Positions 11,116 to 34,411 of a DNA stretch of 46,116 nt are shown here, in pieces; the stretch's first letter is position 1, and each line of letters starts with the position of its first letter. The position numbers and the translations under genes are program-made. The DNA comes from an uncultured Bacilli bacterium (GTDB lineage Bacteria > Bacillota_I > Bacilli_A > RF39 > UBA660). The DNA is taken from NCBI GenBank assembly GCA_947586205.1, contig CANPXO010000004.1, forward strand, positions 1-46,116. The letters run 5' to 3'. Under the pieces are notes generated by a model. That model was not told where the DNA came from, ran no database searches, and saw only the letters and a program-made list of their open reading frames with translations.

Positions 11116-11144
11116 ATCTTATCAACTTTTTCTAAGAAAATCAA
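11116..11144 (-). promoter_or_regulatory. promoter of the T-box/valS operon: TTGATT-17 bp-TAAGAT
   Basis: -35 at 11139-11144, -10 at 11116-11121. Confidence 0.6.
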
Positions 11145-12118
11145 GTAAAAGATAGGGTTTCTACCACGTTTGCATTGATTTCAATTTCAATCTCGCCTGT
11201 TTCATTTCGTTTTGCAGACACAGTATCATCTTCTTCTATTTCGTGAACTTCAGAAATTACTTCATTTGTATTCATATCATAAATATAAAAAGTGCCTTCT
11301 ACAGTTTGACAACTGATGTACTTATCAATAAAAGCTAAAGAAACAAAATCCCCTTCTAAAACTTGTTCCCCAGAATAATTCATTAAATGATTCAACTCAT
11401 TTTTTTCAGTTATAATATAGGTATCATTATATGTTACGATTGGTTCAAGAATACTTTGAGTCAGTTTTTCATCATTAGCATTAATAATATACCATTCAGA
11501 TCCTTCCTCGGCGACAAAAGAAGAAGATGTTAATGGAGGTTCTCCCACTTTATCATCGATGACTCCAATAAAATCATAACTATAAGGTACAACTAAAGTG
11601 GCAAGCAAATCTACTTGTAAAATACCAAATTTATGTTCCTTATTTTCGACAATAAAATAAGAGTTAGCTAATCCTATTTGATAATTTTTAATGGAATCAT
11701 AAGAAACAGATTTATAAGAAAAATTATTTTTTATATCATATAGAAATGTTTCAGTACTCTCTTCTGTTTCATTATCTTGAATAAAAACATATTGATCTAA
11801 AATAACAGGAATGTAAGATGTTTCTTTGCTTTGATAATAGTCAATGGGATAATCTTTATCATTTTCATAAGATATTGCATAACGACAATTCGGATGTTCA
11901 CACGTATATGTTCCTAAAACCTCTCCACTCGCATTATAAAACCATAACATCCCGTTATAATATAATTCTTTATTTGGATTATCACTAAATGCTGGATTTT
12001 TAGGCTTTACATTTTTACTTATATGTAAGTAAAGACTATATCCTCCTAAAGGAACAAAGATGAGTAATAAAACGAGAATGATTAGAAAAGCTGTCTTCTG
12101 CATTTTTGGACTAATCAT
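11141..12118 (-). CDS. membrane-anchored extracellular repeat protein (one module), paralogous to the upstream gene
   Basis: N-terminal TM; module MLWFYNASGEVLGTYTCEHPNC...YIPVILDQYVFIQD; SD AAGGAG before ATG 12118; overlaps the upstream stop. Confidence 0.75.
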   Translation of the reverse strand: MISPKMQKTAFLIILVLLLIFVPLGGYSLYLHISKNVKPKNPAFSDNPNKELYYNGMLWFYNASGEVLGTYTCEHPNCRYAISYENDKDYPIDYYQSKETSYIPVILDQYVFIQDNETEESTETFLYDIKNNFSYKSVSYDSIKNYQIGLANSYFIVENKEHKFGILQVDLLATLVVPYSYDFIGVIDDKVGEPPLTSSSFVAEEGSEWYIINANDEKLTQSILEPIVTYNDTYIITEKNELNHLMNYSGEQVLEGDFVSLAFIDKYISCQTVEGTFYIYDMNTNEVISEVHEIEEDDTVSAKRNETGEIEIEINANVVETLSFT

Positions 12119-14450
12119 TCGTTTCTTCTCCTTCCGTAGACTCACTTGGATGATTTCCTTCTTCTGGATTTTGTTCTTCCTCACTCGGATCTGGTTCTTG
12201 TTCTTTTGGATGAATTGGATATGCAATTTCTTTTTGATAATAACCATTCGTATCGCCTAAAGCAACATAAATATTTTCATTATCAAATGTTATTTTGAAT
12301 GCATTGATTGTTTGTCCATAATATTTATCAGATGGTAAAATGAGTTTTAATCCTTCTTCTTCCCCATCACTAATCAAATTCTTTTTTGCATCTTCATATG
12401 AATAGACATAGAGTCTTCCACTTAAAACTGTTGCAAAGTAATTATCATAAAGTTCTACATAATCATAACTGTTACTTGTAAGTTCTCCTTCAAAAGAATA
12501 GACATGATATTGGTTATCTTTTAGGGTTTTCATATAGTTTTTATGATAATCAACAATTGGTGATGGAGCATCTGTTGTCACTTTCTTTCCACTTGCATCA
12601 TATAAAGAATATTTTCCGTTTTCTTCTACTACATAGTAATCTCCTAGTTTTAAAATACTTTCTTTTTCAAAACTAATCACAGATTCTACTTTATCCTTAG
12701 AAATCTTTACAACTCCATATTTAGAGGAATTATTAGATTTTGCAATAAAGGTAATGTCCCCATTTTGAAAGCTAAGTTCTTTTAAACCTGTATAAGAAGA
12801 AGTATCGACTGTTTCATAAGGAGCTTTTTCTTCGTTATTCAAAAGATCATAGAACACAATTCGATCTCCATCTTGAATAAAGATGTACTGTTTATAGAAA
12901 ATTGGAATCACACCTGTTTCTATTTTTTGATTTTCTTTTGTATTTCTTGTTTCTCTTAGAATCGAATCAATGGCAGGTGCACAGGCACTTAAACTTTCTG
13001 TTTTTTCTTCCACTTCATTACGATTTGTGCATTCATAACTGCCAAGTAATTTTGTTTTTTCTTGGTCTTCATAGAAATAGAGTTTGCCATCAAAGTAATT
13101 CATATAAGCAAGTTTTTGAGATAAGTTTCCTTCCCATAAATCATAATGATAATTTTGAGCCGAAATTCCATCATAGACATTTAAATTTAAAGTATGATCT
13201 TGTTTTTCATAATCAAAAGATTTTGCTGTTTCTACCGTCTTACCATCTTTAATCGTTGCTTTTGGATTATAATTTGTATTTTTAAGTGTCACTTCTTGTA
13301 AGCCCATTGTATGGTTTTCATAGTCTTTTATCACAACAGATTTGTTTACAATTCCAATATAAATGTCATCTAATAAAGCTACATAATCATACATTTCTTC
13401 ATTGATTTTTTTTCCATTATAATCATAAATTTGATATTTTCCTGCCGCATCTTTGGATTTGATATGAGTACTACTTGCTCCGACAATTGGTAAAGTGACA
13501 GCTTTCGAAACTTGATTTAAAAGATTGGCAACATAGTAGTTTTGGTCTTTTCGAACAGCCACCATAGCTAGAGCATCACTTTCAGGAATCATGTGCATTT
13601 CTTCATAAGAAGAAGCATAAGGAATGACAATTTTTACTTCACTTTCGGTAAATTGTAGTAAAGCATAGAAACCCTCATCATTTTTAGTCACAAAGTATCC
13701 ATCATATTCTGGAGTTTGTAAGACTTCAATTACGGTATCAACAACTTCTTTATTTTTGATATCATAGATTTTGGTTTCAATATTTTTAGCATTGCTAGAA
13801 TCTCTTAAGAAAACAAAACGGTTAAAATAGATTTTGGAACGGAAATTAAGAGATTTTCCATCAACATCCACTCTTCTTACTGTATCCATGGTTTCATCGG
13901 TTTGTAATGTTGCAACAGCACATAAAGTCTCATCTTGATTGATACATTCATACTCCCCAATTTCTTCTTCTTTTTCATCTAAGAAAATTAATTTCCCATT
14001 TTCATAACGATAGTTGTCCATTTCTAAAACAATATCTGGTTCCTTTGGAGTCTCTTCTGGTTTCTTGAATAAGATACATAAAAAGACAATTAAGACAATC
14101 ATCAATACAAGAACAAAAACACCTAAAGATACAAATAAAATCTTATTTTTCTTACTTAAACCATTCCATTTCTTTTTGCATTTACTAAAAATACTTTCTT
14201 TCTTTTCAGCATTTATTTTTTCTTTTGTTTCTACTTCTGTTTGAAAAATTAAATCTGCATCTCGACTACTCTCATCAAAAGCTTGAGCATAGTCCTCTAT
14301 AGAATTTTGTCCTTTTTCAGGAATTAAGTCTTTTAATTCAATCACTTCTTTTGTCGTTTCTAATGTTTCCATCTCATTTTCAAAAAGATCTTTATTTTCC
14401 TTATTTTTTTCTTCTTCGAAAGAAAAATCTTTCTCATCCATACTAGTCAT
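12111..14450 (-). CDS. membrane-anchored extracellular repeat protein with at least two modules
   Basis: acidic cytosolic N-terminus, TM ILFVSLGVFVLVLMIVLIVFLCILF, repeated LIFLDEKEEEIGEYEC / KLYFYEDQEKTKLLGSYEC modules. Confidence 0.8.
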   Translation of the reverse strand: MTSMDEKDFSFEEEKNKENKDLFENEMETLETTKEVIELKDLIPEKGQNSIEDYAQAFDESSRDADLIFQTEVETKEKINAEKKESIFSKCKKKWNGLSKKNKILFVSLGVFVLVLMIVLIVFLCILFKKPEETPKEPDIVLEMDNYRYENGKLIFLDEKEEEIGEYECINQDETLCAVATLQTDETMDTVRRVDVDGKSLNFRSKIYFNRFVFLRDSSNAKNIETKIYDIKNKEVVDTVIEVLQTPEYDGYFVTKNDEGFYALLQFTESEVKIVIPYASSYEEMHMIPESDALAMVAVRKDQNYYVANLLNQVSKAVTLPIVGASSTHIKSKDAAGKYQIYDYNGKKINEEMYDYVALLDDIYIGIVNKSVVIKDYENHTMGLQEVTLKNTNYNPKATIKDGKTVETAKSFDYEKQDHTLNLNVYDGISAQNYHYDLWEGNLSQKLAYMNYFDGKLYFYEDQEKTKLLGSYECTNRNEVEEKTESLSACAPAIDSILRETRNTKENQKIETGVIPIFYKQYIFIQDGDRIVFYDLLNNEEKAPYETVDTSSYTGLKELSFQNGDITFIAKSNNSSKYGVVKISKDKVESVISFEKESILKLGDYYVVEENGKYSLYDASGKKVTTDAPSPIVDYHKNYMKTLKDNQYHVYSFEGELTSNSYDYVELYDNYFATVLSGRLYVYSYEDAKKNLISDGEEEGLKLILPSDKYYGQTINAFKITFDNENIYVALGDTNGYYQKEIAYPIHPKEQEPDPSEEEQNPEEGNHPSESTEGEETND

Positions 14451-28970: not shown

Positions 28971-30920
28971 TTAGCAATAATTCTTTCTAGCTACTGTACA
29001 TTGTTGACTACAACTTGTATCATTGCAATCATACAAAGCATCAGGGCTTTGTGCACAACCAGCAGCAGTACAACTAGGCGTGCATTTGCAACAACTCCTT
29101 CCTGTACTACAACTTGTGTAATGGGAGCCAGCATCTCCACAATCTTGTCCAGTTACACGACTTATATATCTTCTTGAAATATATCTACTTCCTGTTCCAC
29201 AACTACCCTGACAAGAACCACTGCTTTCGCTTATATATGTAAATTGTGAATCACAACAACTTACTGTATTACAACTTTGTGAATCTTCATCTGTATGAGT
29301 TCCACATGAAGTTCTATGATCATATGCACTTTGATAATAGACATCTCTAGTTTGTGTTCCTCCATTACATGTTGCACTACAAGATTTCCAAGATCCTTCA
29401 CCAGATCTTTCTATGCTGCTGCAACAATTTGTTGGCTGTGGACAATGTGGATGCAATGTTCTTGTATCACAAACATCCCCTAAATATTTATCAAAAGATG
29501 AATCATATTGATTATAATAGTTATTTCCACACGCTGGACATGAATTACTTGTATTTGATTGTTCAATCCATCCTGTTTGTGCACTGCATCTCGCATAGAC
29601 TGTATAATTTTGTTGAGCATTCTTGGTATTTCCTGCTTTGTCTCTTATGGATACATATACCGTTCGAACTTGTCCGTCATAATCCCCATTAAATTTTAAT
29701 AATTGTTCTGTTTCTTCATATTTTTCCCATGTACAATCTCTTAAATATCCTGTTTGAGAGATACACATCTCTAAATTTTCTTTTCCATCATCGTCATCAG
29801 CCTGAATTTTTATTTTGACATTTAAATCATTGTATCCTGGTGATGAAGATTTCACTGTGACACCATTGATTTTTGGAATCTCACTGTCCACCCGATCAAT
29901 ATGAATTTGATTTCTTTCACTTCTTAAATCATCATCACTACTTACATTTCCTACTTTATCTTTTACACATATATAATATGTTTTATTGCTTCCATCTGCT
30001 CTTAAATACTCTGTTTGAATGCCTTCTGATGCACTTTTGTATCCACTTATATTACTACATGTATTTGTTCCAATATTATCTGCTATTGCATACTCTTTAA
30101 TTCCACTTCCAGATCCATCTGTGAGTTCAAAGGTCACTCTTCTTGCTCCACTCGTATTTGTATCATTATTTACTGTAACACTTCCTTCTGTCACTGTTGG
30201 TCTTTGGATATCTAATAATACTTTTGTTGATAAATTATTCACAAGAGAAGCTCCACTTTCATTTAATACTATTTTTACTTGTAATCTCACTTCTATATTT
30301 TTGATCCCATTTTCATAGGCTTCTATTAAATATTTTTGACATTCATCTAGATTGTTCTCTTGTGTACTACAATTTAGTTGAGCTTGTCCACTCCATGAGA
30401 TTTCACTTATTATTCCTTTCCTTTCGTATTCTGGTTTTAACCGATATCTTACATTCACTTTACTTTCTTTTAACCATGTATTTTCATTTTCTCTTGGTAT
30501 TTCTTGTCCATTTGTATTTTCTAAATACAGTTCCACCATTCCAAATAAGTTTTCTAGGTATTGTTCTTCATAACATTCATGACTTTCTGTAATACTTGCT
30601 TCATAACTTCCATTTTGATACTGCATTGTTATAATATCACAAGACATATCTCGTCCACTTACAGGATCCTTATATTCTCCTAGTTCACTATCGGAAGATA
30701 ATACTCCTGCTTCTATTAATGTCTTCACATCAAAAACGCTTTTGCCTGTTTCTTCAGCATATTTTTCACTTTTCGCTTTTAATTCCTCTATTTTTGTTTC
30801 TGACATACTTTGATTTATATTTGCAGATATTGTTAAATATACTGGCACAGAAACACCAATTAATAATCCTAGTATAGCAATCACTGCTAAAAGTTCTATT
30901 AATGTAAATCCTCTTTTCAT
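28971..30920 (-). CDS. large prepilin-like surface protein with Cys-rich, thrombospondin-1-like C-terminus
   Basis: MKRGFTLIELLAVIAILGLLIGVSVPVYLTI prepilin signal; GSWKSCSATCNGGTQTRDV TSP1-like motif; many Cys in the last 200 aa. Confidence 0.85.
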   Translation of the reverse strand: MKRGFTLIELLAVIAILGLLIGVSVPVYLTISANINQSMSETKIEELKAKSEKYAEETGKSVFDVKTLIEAGVLSSDSELGEYKDPVSGRDMSCDIITMQYQNGSYEASITESHECYEEQYLENLFGMVELYLENTNGQEIPRENENTWLKESKVNVRYRLKPEYERKGIISEISWSGQAQLNCSTQENNLDECQKYLIEAYENGIKNIEVRLQVKIVLNESGASLVNNLSTKVLLDIQRPTVTEGSVTVNNDTNTSGARRVTFELTDGSGSGIKEYAIADNIGTNTCSNISGYKSASEGIQTEYLRADGSNKTYYICVKDKVGNVSSDDDLRSERNQIHIDRVDSEIPKINGVTVKSSSPGYNDLNVKIKIQADDDDGKENLEMCISQTGYLRDCTWEKYEETEQLLKFNGDYDGQVRTVYVSIRDKAGNTKNAQQNYTVYARCSAQTGWIEQSNTSNSCPACGNNYYNQYDSSFDKYLGDVCDTRTLHPHCPQPTNCCSSIERSGEGSWKSCSATCNGGTQTRDVYYQSAYDHRTSCGTHTDEDSQSCNTVSCCDSQFTYISESSGSCQGSCGTGSRYISRRYISRVTGQDCGDAGSHYTSCSTGRSCCKCTPSCTAAGCAQSPDALYDCNDTSCSQQCTVARKNYC

Positions 30921-33331: not shown

Positions 33332-34411
33332 TTACTCTTTTGTTTTTTTTCTTTTCTTTTTCTTTTTTTCTTCTGTTTCTTCTAAGTTTTCTGGGTCTCC
33401 TATTTTCAAGAAAATCTTAGCAAGGGCAATGGGGTGCATCACAAATTCAATCGAATCTGCTTTATCAACAAGTGTAATAAGCCAAGCTTCTTTACTTCTA
33501 GGGAGTTTTTTATTCACTGGAAACATATGGGTAAGCATAATTTCTTCTACTTTTGGAGTTACAACTTTGGTTCCAAAGACTCTCTTTGCATTATCCACTG
33601 CATTTTTCGCATGAGTAAACGCATGTTTTTCAAAAAATTTTTTTCTTTCTTTGTCATATTGCCAAGGTTTCTCATAAAAATCATGTAACATTCCGGCAAC
33701 AGCTAAGCTTTTATAATCTAAGGAATATCTTTTTCCAATTTTATAACAATCAAATGCGACTTTAGAAACATGTTCATAAACAGATTCATGTATATGATGG
33801 GGATATTTTTTCCTTTTTTGAAATTCTTCATTTTCAATAATAGGTTTGACTAATTCAAGAAATTCTTTACGTTCTTTATCTCTTTCTTTTTGTATTTCTT
33901 CTTTGGTTCTTCCTTTATAATAAAGATAACAACATAATGTTAGAATTTGTAAAATAAAAGTAATGATAATAAATATTTGAATCGGAATCCATGGAATTAT
34001 CATAGCTAAAAAGCCAAAAAGAATCGTTAAGAAAATAGCCCAAGTTTTAATTTTACCAATCAGTAAAGATGCGACAACTCCTTTTTTAAAATAAAAATAT
34101 AAATTAATACAAGCAATCACACATTCTAAAAGAAGTAAATAGAAATAAGCATGATTTTTAATCACTAATAAAATCAGTAAACTAATTGCCAATGTCTTAT
34201 CGGCAACCGTATCTAACTTCGCACCAAATGCACTTGTGACTTTCCATTTTCTTGCTAAAAAGCCATCTAAAAAATCAGTAAAAGAAATGATTCCCACGAC
34301 AACAATTAAAAGCCAATAATGATTCGTTAATCCTAAATAAATTATCATAGGTGTACATATAATTCTTAACGATGTTAAACAATTAGGAATATATTTTTTT
34401 ATGCTTTTCAT
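33332..34411 (-). CDS. CDP-alcohol phosphatidyltransferase fused to an HD-domain phosphohydrolase
   Basis: N-terminal DFLDGFLARKWKVTSAFGAKLDTVADK (CDP-OH-P motif D-G-A-R-G-D-D); C-terminal HHIHESVYEHVSKVAFDCYKI...AGMLHDFYEKPW...MLTHMFP...LVDKADS. Confidence 0.88.
   Translation of the reverse strand: MKSIKKYIPNCLTSLRIICTPMIIYLGLTNHYWLLIVVVGIISFTDFLDGFLARKWKVTSAFGAKLDTVADKTLAISLLILLVIKNHAYFYLLLLECVIACINLYFYFKKGVVASLLIGKIKTWAIFLTILFGFLAMIIPWIPIQIFIIITFILQILTLCCYLYYKGRTKEEIQKERDKERKEFLELVKPIIENEEFQKRKKYPHHIHESVYEHVSKVAFDCYKIGKRYSLDYKSLAVAGMLHDFYEKPWQYDKERKKFFEKHAFTHAKNAVDNAKRVFGTKVVTPKVEEIMLTHMFPVNKKLPRSKEAWLITLVDKADSIEFVMHPIALAKIFLKIGDPENLEETEEKKKKKRKKTKE

Follow-up and report, generated by a model that had tools for sequence, protein, structure and literature searches.

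The window analysed here, 46,116 nucleotides long, is one contig (C4) of a 104-contig, 1.48-Mb genome that is 92% complete. Its source is probably a member of the RF39-like gut Bacilli, which have small genomes (PMC6784871). Positions 28971..30920 of its minus strand hold a complete open reading frame whose translation is a modular prepilin of 649 residues. The preliminary description had located the gene at these positions, which stand; the strand is the minus one, and a plus-strand reading was discarded because there is no open frame on it. The neighbors are housekeeping genes, with an FtsK/SpoIIIE-type translocase upstream and an RsmC-type methyltransferase downstream, followed by rpoB and rpoC (names assigned from their sequence). 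Elsewhere on the minus strand of the window, we observed two adjoining single-pass membrane proteins of 368 and 779 residues with a similar sequence style (11141-14450), the larger of them without a Pfam match, and a single open reading frame in which a CDP-alcohol phosphatidyltransferase is fused to an HD domain (33332-34411).

The 649-residue protein starts with a class III signal, MKRG followed by FTLIELLAVIAILGLLIGVSVP, which would be cut after the glycine and carries Glu5 (MKRG/FTLIE). This N-terminus scored over the cut-offs of both Pfam N_methyl (26.4 bits; cut-off, 21.2) and TIGR02532 (28.8 bits; cut-off, 16.3), bearing out the prepilin identity proposed in the preliminary description. 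The signal and the pilin alpha-1 helix occupy residues 1-58 (30747..30920, minus strand). In the predicted model, the long helix spans residues 7-58 and leads into a small pilin head (residues 59-128; 30537..30746, minus strand), delimited by the secondary structure of the model (pLDDT ~90) with approximate boundaries. Residues 129-443 (29592..30536, minus strand) follow as three Ig/FnIII-like beta-sandwich domains (about 129-239, 240-345, and 346-443; pLDDT near 90). No Pfam domain reached its cut-off there in the whole-protein scan, and it is the model and its Ig/FnIII fold matches that agree with the Ig-like domains expected after the prepilin signal. The fold search with the whole model returned Ig/FnIII stacks only, with bacterial matches including the adhesins SiiE and GhpA, and the C-terminal repeat was therefore modeled alone.

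From residue 445 onward, the protein has 26 cysteines, arranged as three head-to-tail six-cysteine units, with eight cysteines left for the tail. Where one unit meets the next, at 499/500 and 555/556, the last cysteine of the former and the first cysteine of the latter form a CC pair. Unit 2 (residues 500-555; 29256..29423, minus strand) is a thrombospondin type 1 repeat (TSR) with a group-2 cysteine pattern, identified by profiles and fold search. Its sequence (GSWKSCSATCNGGTQTRDV) matched TSP1_ADAMTS with 25.2 bits over residues 509-555 (cut-off, 23.8), confirming a TSP1-class module in the same open reading frame as the prepilin scaffold. Against PF00090 (TSP_1), the unit scored 25.2 bits in the genome search, over the cut-off, and 19.4 bits in the whole-protein scan, below the cut-off of 21.6. 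A bacterial TSR profile, built only from repeats of other genomes, gave 45.8 bits for unit 2, 13.7 bits for unit 3 (CQGSCGTGSRYISRRY), and 4.3 bits for unit 1, against 11.0 bits at best among 2000 shuffles of the tail that kept its composition. Since unit 3 (residues 556-610; 29091..29255, minus strand; CQGSCGTGSRY...) exceeds this value, it is a divergent TSR, in keeping with the second TSP1-like segment of the preliminary description. Unit 1 (residues 445-499; 29424..29588, minus strand) shows TSR spacing with CxxC in place of CxxxC; its profile score falls inside the shuffle range, no better than chance, and it would count as a TSR by cysteine spacing only. The tail (residues 611-649; 28974..29090, minus strand), defined from the translation by its eight cysteines, was modeled with low confidence, as was unit 3, and its pLDDT is below 50.

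Structural comparisons pointed in the same direction. The repeat profile matched 40 distinct PDB sequences at E-values up to 0.01, all 40 of them containing TSRs. Residues 484-562 were modeled with three strands, and a PDB fold search with this model gave TSRs at every rank from 1 to 45, the matches being weak (E-values of 0.01 and up, query TM-scores near 0.4). With these strengths in mind, the TSR-like fold anticipated in the preliminary description was recovered, and we consider the prepilin-Ig-TSR architecture, whose domain order follows from sequence and model, to be established.

Group 1 TSRs have the disulfides C1-C5, C2-C6, and C3-C4, and group 2 TSRs have C1-C4, C2-C5, and C3-C6 (PMC11990869). 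The group-2 pattern, with an additional N-terminal cysteine and a strand B free of cysteine, was found in 52 of the 57 distinct bacterial units, units 2 and 3 of the 649-residue protein among them. A strand-B cysteine occurs in four units (three in L096 and one in L090), and in the L028/L008 unit, the N-terminal cysteine and its predicted C1-C4 partner are both gone. No unit lacking the strand-B cysteine has lost one of these partners alone. This joint loss is indirect evidence for C1-C4, one of the predicted group-2 disulfides. The Trp/Arg ladder looks thin: one tryptophan and one strand-B arginine are clear in unit 2, and 26 of the 57 units have no tryptophan within the 8 residues before CxxxC. 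In animal TSRs, a Ser/Thr position is O-fucosylated, and the residue is kept at this position in 39 of the 57 units. Bacterial TSRs differ from eukaryotic ones in that they sit on a pilin, abut via a CC pair, have few tryptophans, and gave no match to O-FucT or Dpy19 in six carrier genomes, in searches run without a positive control.

The relatives share one order: prepilin, head, Ig-like domains, TSR, and an end module that differs from one protein to the next. The end module is a Listeria-Bacteroides repeat in L006, further Ig-like repeats in L008 and L018, and a common module starting with DPVESMDPN or similar in L012, L013, L014, and L036. In L017 (3-2084), a prepilin-family TSR protein whose 5' end is cut by the contig edge, the end module is an ALK/LTK-type glycine-rich domain that scored 99.5 bits against a cut-off of 24.5; it, too, takes its name from animal receptors. 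Other relatives carry end domains without assignment beyond the TSR. Small proteins with an N-terminal membrane segment are often encoded 3' of the pilin genes (L029:3974-4666, L104:7356-8021, L041:5531-6037, and L032:7863-8345); the one in L104 has DUF285/LRR repeats and the other three have no Pfam match.

Paralogs of one genome are 88-97% identical at the DNA level along a shared scaffold stretch. In eight pairs from four genomes (L026/L060, L061/L062/L012, L058/L059, and L063/L064/L065), this identity ends 0-13 bases from the end of the first TSR, and unrelated modules follow, with an ungapped identity of 0.28-0.46 over the next 300 bases. In a ninth pair, the similarity runs on past the TSR, as in a whole-gene duplication. 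Since the near-identical scaffold stops at the end of the first TSR, this repeat is the junction between constant and variable parts in several relatives, a feature new here. Such near-identical scaffolds were seen in relatives and not in the window's own genome, which encodes one close paralog (C5:37905, 1210 residues) with no TSR, a different end, and a scaffold 72-73% identical in DNA to that of the window gene. In the window protein, the first TSR-type unit is followed by two more TSR-type units and the cysteine-rich tail. Of the genus, 25 TSR genes were examined on their contigs, and 20 of them are cut by a contig end, against about five expected from contig density (P ~1e-10, or 4e-5 with the rate doubled; genes of the same genome are not independent). 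Repeated scaffolds would break assembly at TSR genes, and strain variety in the samples could add to this effect. As a tentative and rather unlikely reading, a homogenised pilin-Ig-TSR scaffold might be kept at several loci per genome and recombination might add different C-terminal modules to it, stopping at the final cysteine of the first TSR, a repeat that would serve as a standard connector. If true, populations would vary what their pili display, like antigenic or phase variation.

The genome encodes candidate machinery for processing and assembling a pilin. On contig C34, a PilB/GspE-type ATPase is encoded along with a PilC/GspF-type platform protein and a bifunctional PilD-type prepilin peptidase (A24_N_bact, 99.5 bits; Peptidase_A24, 43 bits), so that the pilus genes to which the preliminary description had directed attention are present. 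Tad-type ATPase loci are also present (C20 and C25), so that the C34 machine, a Tad-type one, or neither may assemble the pilin. Regarding the cysteines, the window genome had no match to VKOR and no strong match to a DsbA-type oxidase. An exported, membrane-anchored thioredoxin-like protein with a CPHC motif (L098:1426-2184), below every Pfam cut-off, is a possible candidate for the enzyme forming disulfides in cysteine-rich surface proteins. With this CPHC protein as the only candidate and no strong DsbA or VKOR, we can only assume that this anaerobe forms the disulfides.

We propose that the 649-residue protein is a modular type IV pilin with a TSR array, and we hold this whole explanation, including filament and surface contact, to be somewhat more probable than not. 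A PilD-type peptidase, such as the one encoded in the genome, would cut the class III signal after MKRG. The Glu5 helix would then be packed by the PilB/PilC machine of C34 into a filament; display on a filament is likely. The pilin would probably sit at or near the tip, as suggested by PilB of Streptococcus sanguinis and because its bulky body would clash inside the shaft. The three Ig-like domains and the group-2 TSR chain, stiffened by presumed disulfides, would project as a stalk or adaptor, and the end of the chain, which is a variable module in relatives and two TSR-type units with the cysteine-rich tail in the window protein, may contact a gut surface, be it mucus, another cell, or a matrix protein. 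That the protein serves adhesion is a reasoned guess, which we hold to be slightly more probable than not, and the host-binding minor pilin or adhesin suggested in the preliminary description is a putative role. The seemingly thin Trp/Arg ladder and the extra module found beyond the TSR in most relatives count against the idea of glycosaminoglycan binding, and the TSR looks at least as much like a stalk or adaptor as like a binding head.

The most serious alternative for the function, which we regard as possible and clearly less probable than adhesion, is that the array does not bind the host and serves another task of the pilus, such as DNA capture or bacterium-to-bacterium contact. The sequence does not name a ligand and the C-terminal modules vary widely, as such a role would allow. 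The counter-evidence is indirect. The relatives are metagenome bins whose isolate names point to rabbit and chicken, placing them in animal-gut metagenomes, and TSRs and pilus-grafted modules are usually adhesive, which favors surface adhesion and not a given partner.

The prepilin-like N-terminus might instead be a mere membrane anchor, or belong to a pseudopilin, with the Ig-TSR body on the cell surface and outside any filament. The gene stands alone among housekeeping genes rather than in a pilus operon, its body is very large for a pilin, and the PilB/PilC/PilD set is only minimal. However, Glu5 and the full pilin helix are retained, the genome has genes for an assembly ATPase and a platform protein that match, and S. 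sanguinis is able to assemble modular pilins of large size (PMC8179133), making a non-filament anchor unlikely, with about one chance in four.

It is improbable that the repeats are a convergent cysteine-rich module, similar to TSRs without homology. The domain is short, so that single scores are modest, the window repeat has one tryptophan and few strand-B arginines, and an origin by transfer from eukaryotes is a candidate only. Against convergence, a spondin-like TSR is the best Pfam model for some relatives, and L026 reaches 81.9 bits with TSP1_spondin and 65.7 bits with TSP_1, far above the scores of the window protein. The CSx[ST]CGGG core with six-cysteine spacing is present in 52 of the 57 bacterial units, and the 40 PDB matches and the first 45 fold matches were TSRs without exception.

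The distribution of the repeats is narrow. TSP_1 matches were found in 15 of 99 relatives (14 of the same genus, the remaining one of a second genus in the family), in 22 of 385 genomes from the order (spread over 11 genera of that one family), in 2 of the 392 genomes with which the phylum was sampled (again members of the family), and in none of 14 controls. A search with the bacterial profile gave 1 to 7 units per genome in 15 of 37 genomes of the genus. In one carrier, the TSR gene lies on a 1.26-Mb contig between ftsH-like and ParA/ParB-like genes. From this one-family distribution and long-contig linkage, the TSR is a stable part of bacterial genomes, restricted to a lineage, and the confinement of TSP_1 to one family in the genomes searched agrees with the earlier remark that such modules on pilins are rare in bacteria. 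Eukaryotic contamination from host or parasite, conceivable because TSRs occur mostly in eukaryotes and every genome in this analysis was assembled from a metagenome, is ruled out by genomic linkage: the TSR shares an open reading frame with a prepilin signal next to ftsK and rpoB/rpoC, a carrier contig is 1.26 Mb long, and the repeat recurs in 11 genera of a single family. Carriage by phages or plasmids was also considered and rejected, as tblastn of the 649-residue protein gave no match in phage or plasmid collections. Four weak TSR-like matches were observed on IMG/VR viral contigs (L099-L102).

Modular pilins combine a pilin module with a domain not specific to pilus biology, according to PMC8179133, and on every feature testable here, the predicted 649-residue protein is one in that sense. 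In S. sanguinis, PilB carries a grafted vWA module that binds host proteins (PMC8179133), and PilC, likewise a modular type IV pilin, carries a lectin module (PMC8179133 and PMC9934059). These pilins and the window family have in common a class III signal, a pilin module, a C-terminal graft used in adhesion elsewhere, and a monoderm-type bacterium. They differ in the graft, vWA or lectin versus three Ig-like domains and a TSR chain, and in that the window family consists of dispersed single genes with a constant scaffold and different ends within one genome. The PilC/PilY1 tip adhesins likewise present variable effector modules on a common carrier at the tip (PMC8179133). In PilY1, the carrier is a beta-propeller and not a pilin, whereas in the window family it is the pilin itself. 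The CSx[ST]CGGG core, the arginine strand, and the six cysteines in group-2 spacing are shared with the group-2 TSRs of F-spondin and the TSRs of thrombospondin-1, properdin, and apicomplexan CSP/TRAP; TSRs are the best matches in both sequence and fold. Thrombospondin is absent from the main texts of PMC8179133 (which stands beside a dataset of 264 architectures) and PMC10191384. We found no report of TSRs on pilins in the open literature, and database annotation or subscription papers may exist. Modular pilins were thus already known, and the TSR as their grafted module is unreported as far as the open literature shows.

In animal matrix proteins and in the invasion proteins of apicomplexans, TSRs act as the adhesive modules, and apart from the present family it is chiefly in animals and malaria-type parasites that the module is known. 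Group-2 TSRs on bacterial pilins offer a natural system for asking how a small anaerobe makes disulfide-rich TSRs, apparently without the eukaryotic helper glycosyltransferases. They raise the question of whether the TSR crossed kingdoms or arose twice, and that of how small-genome uncultured gut bacteria hold to their surroundings. The constant scaffold and the sharp junction after the first TSR make exchange at the pilus tip open to direct test.
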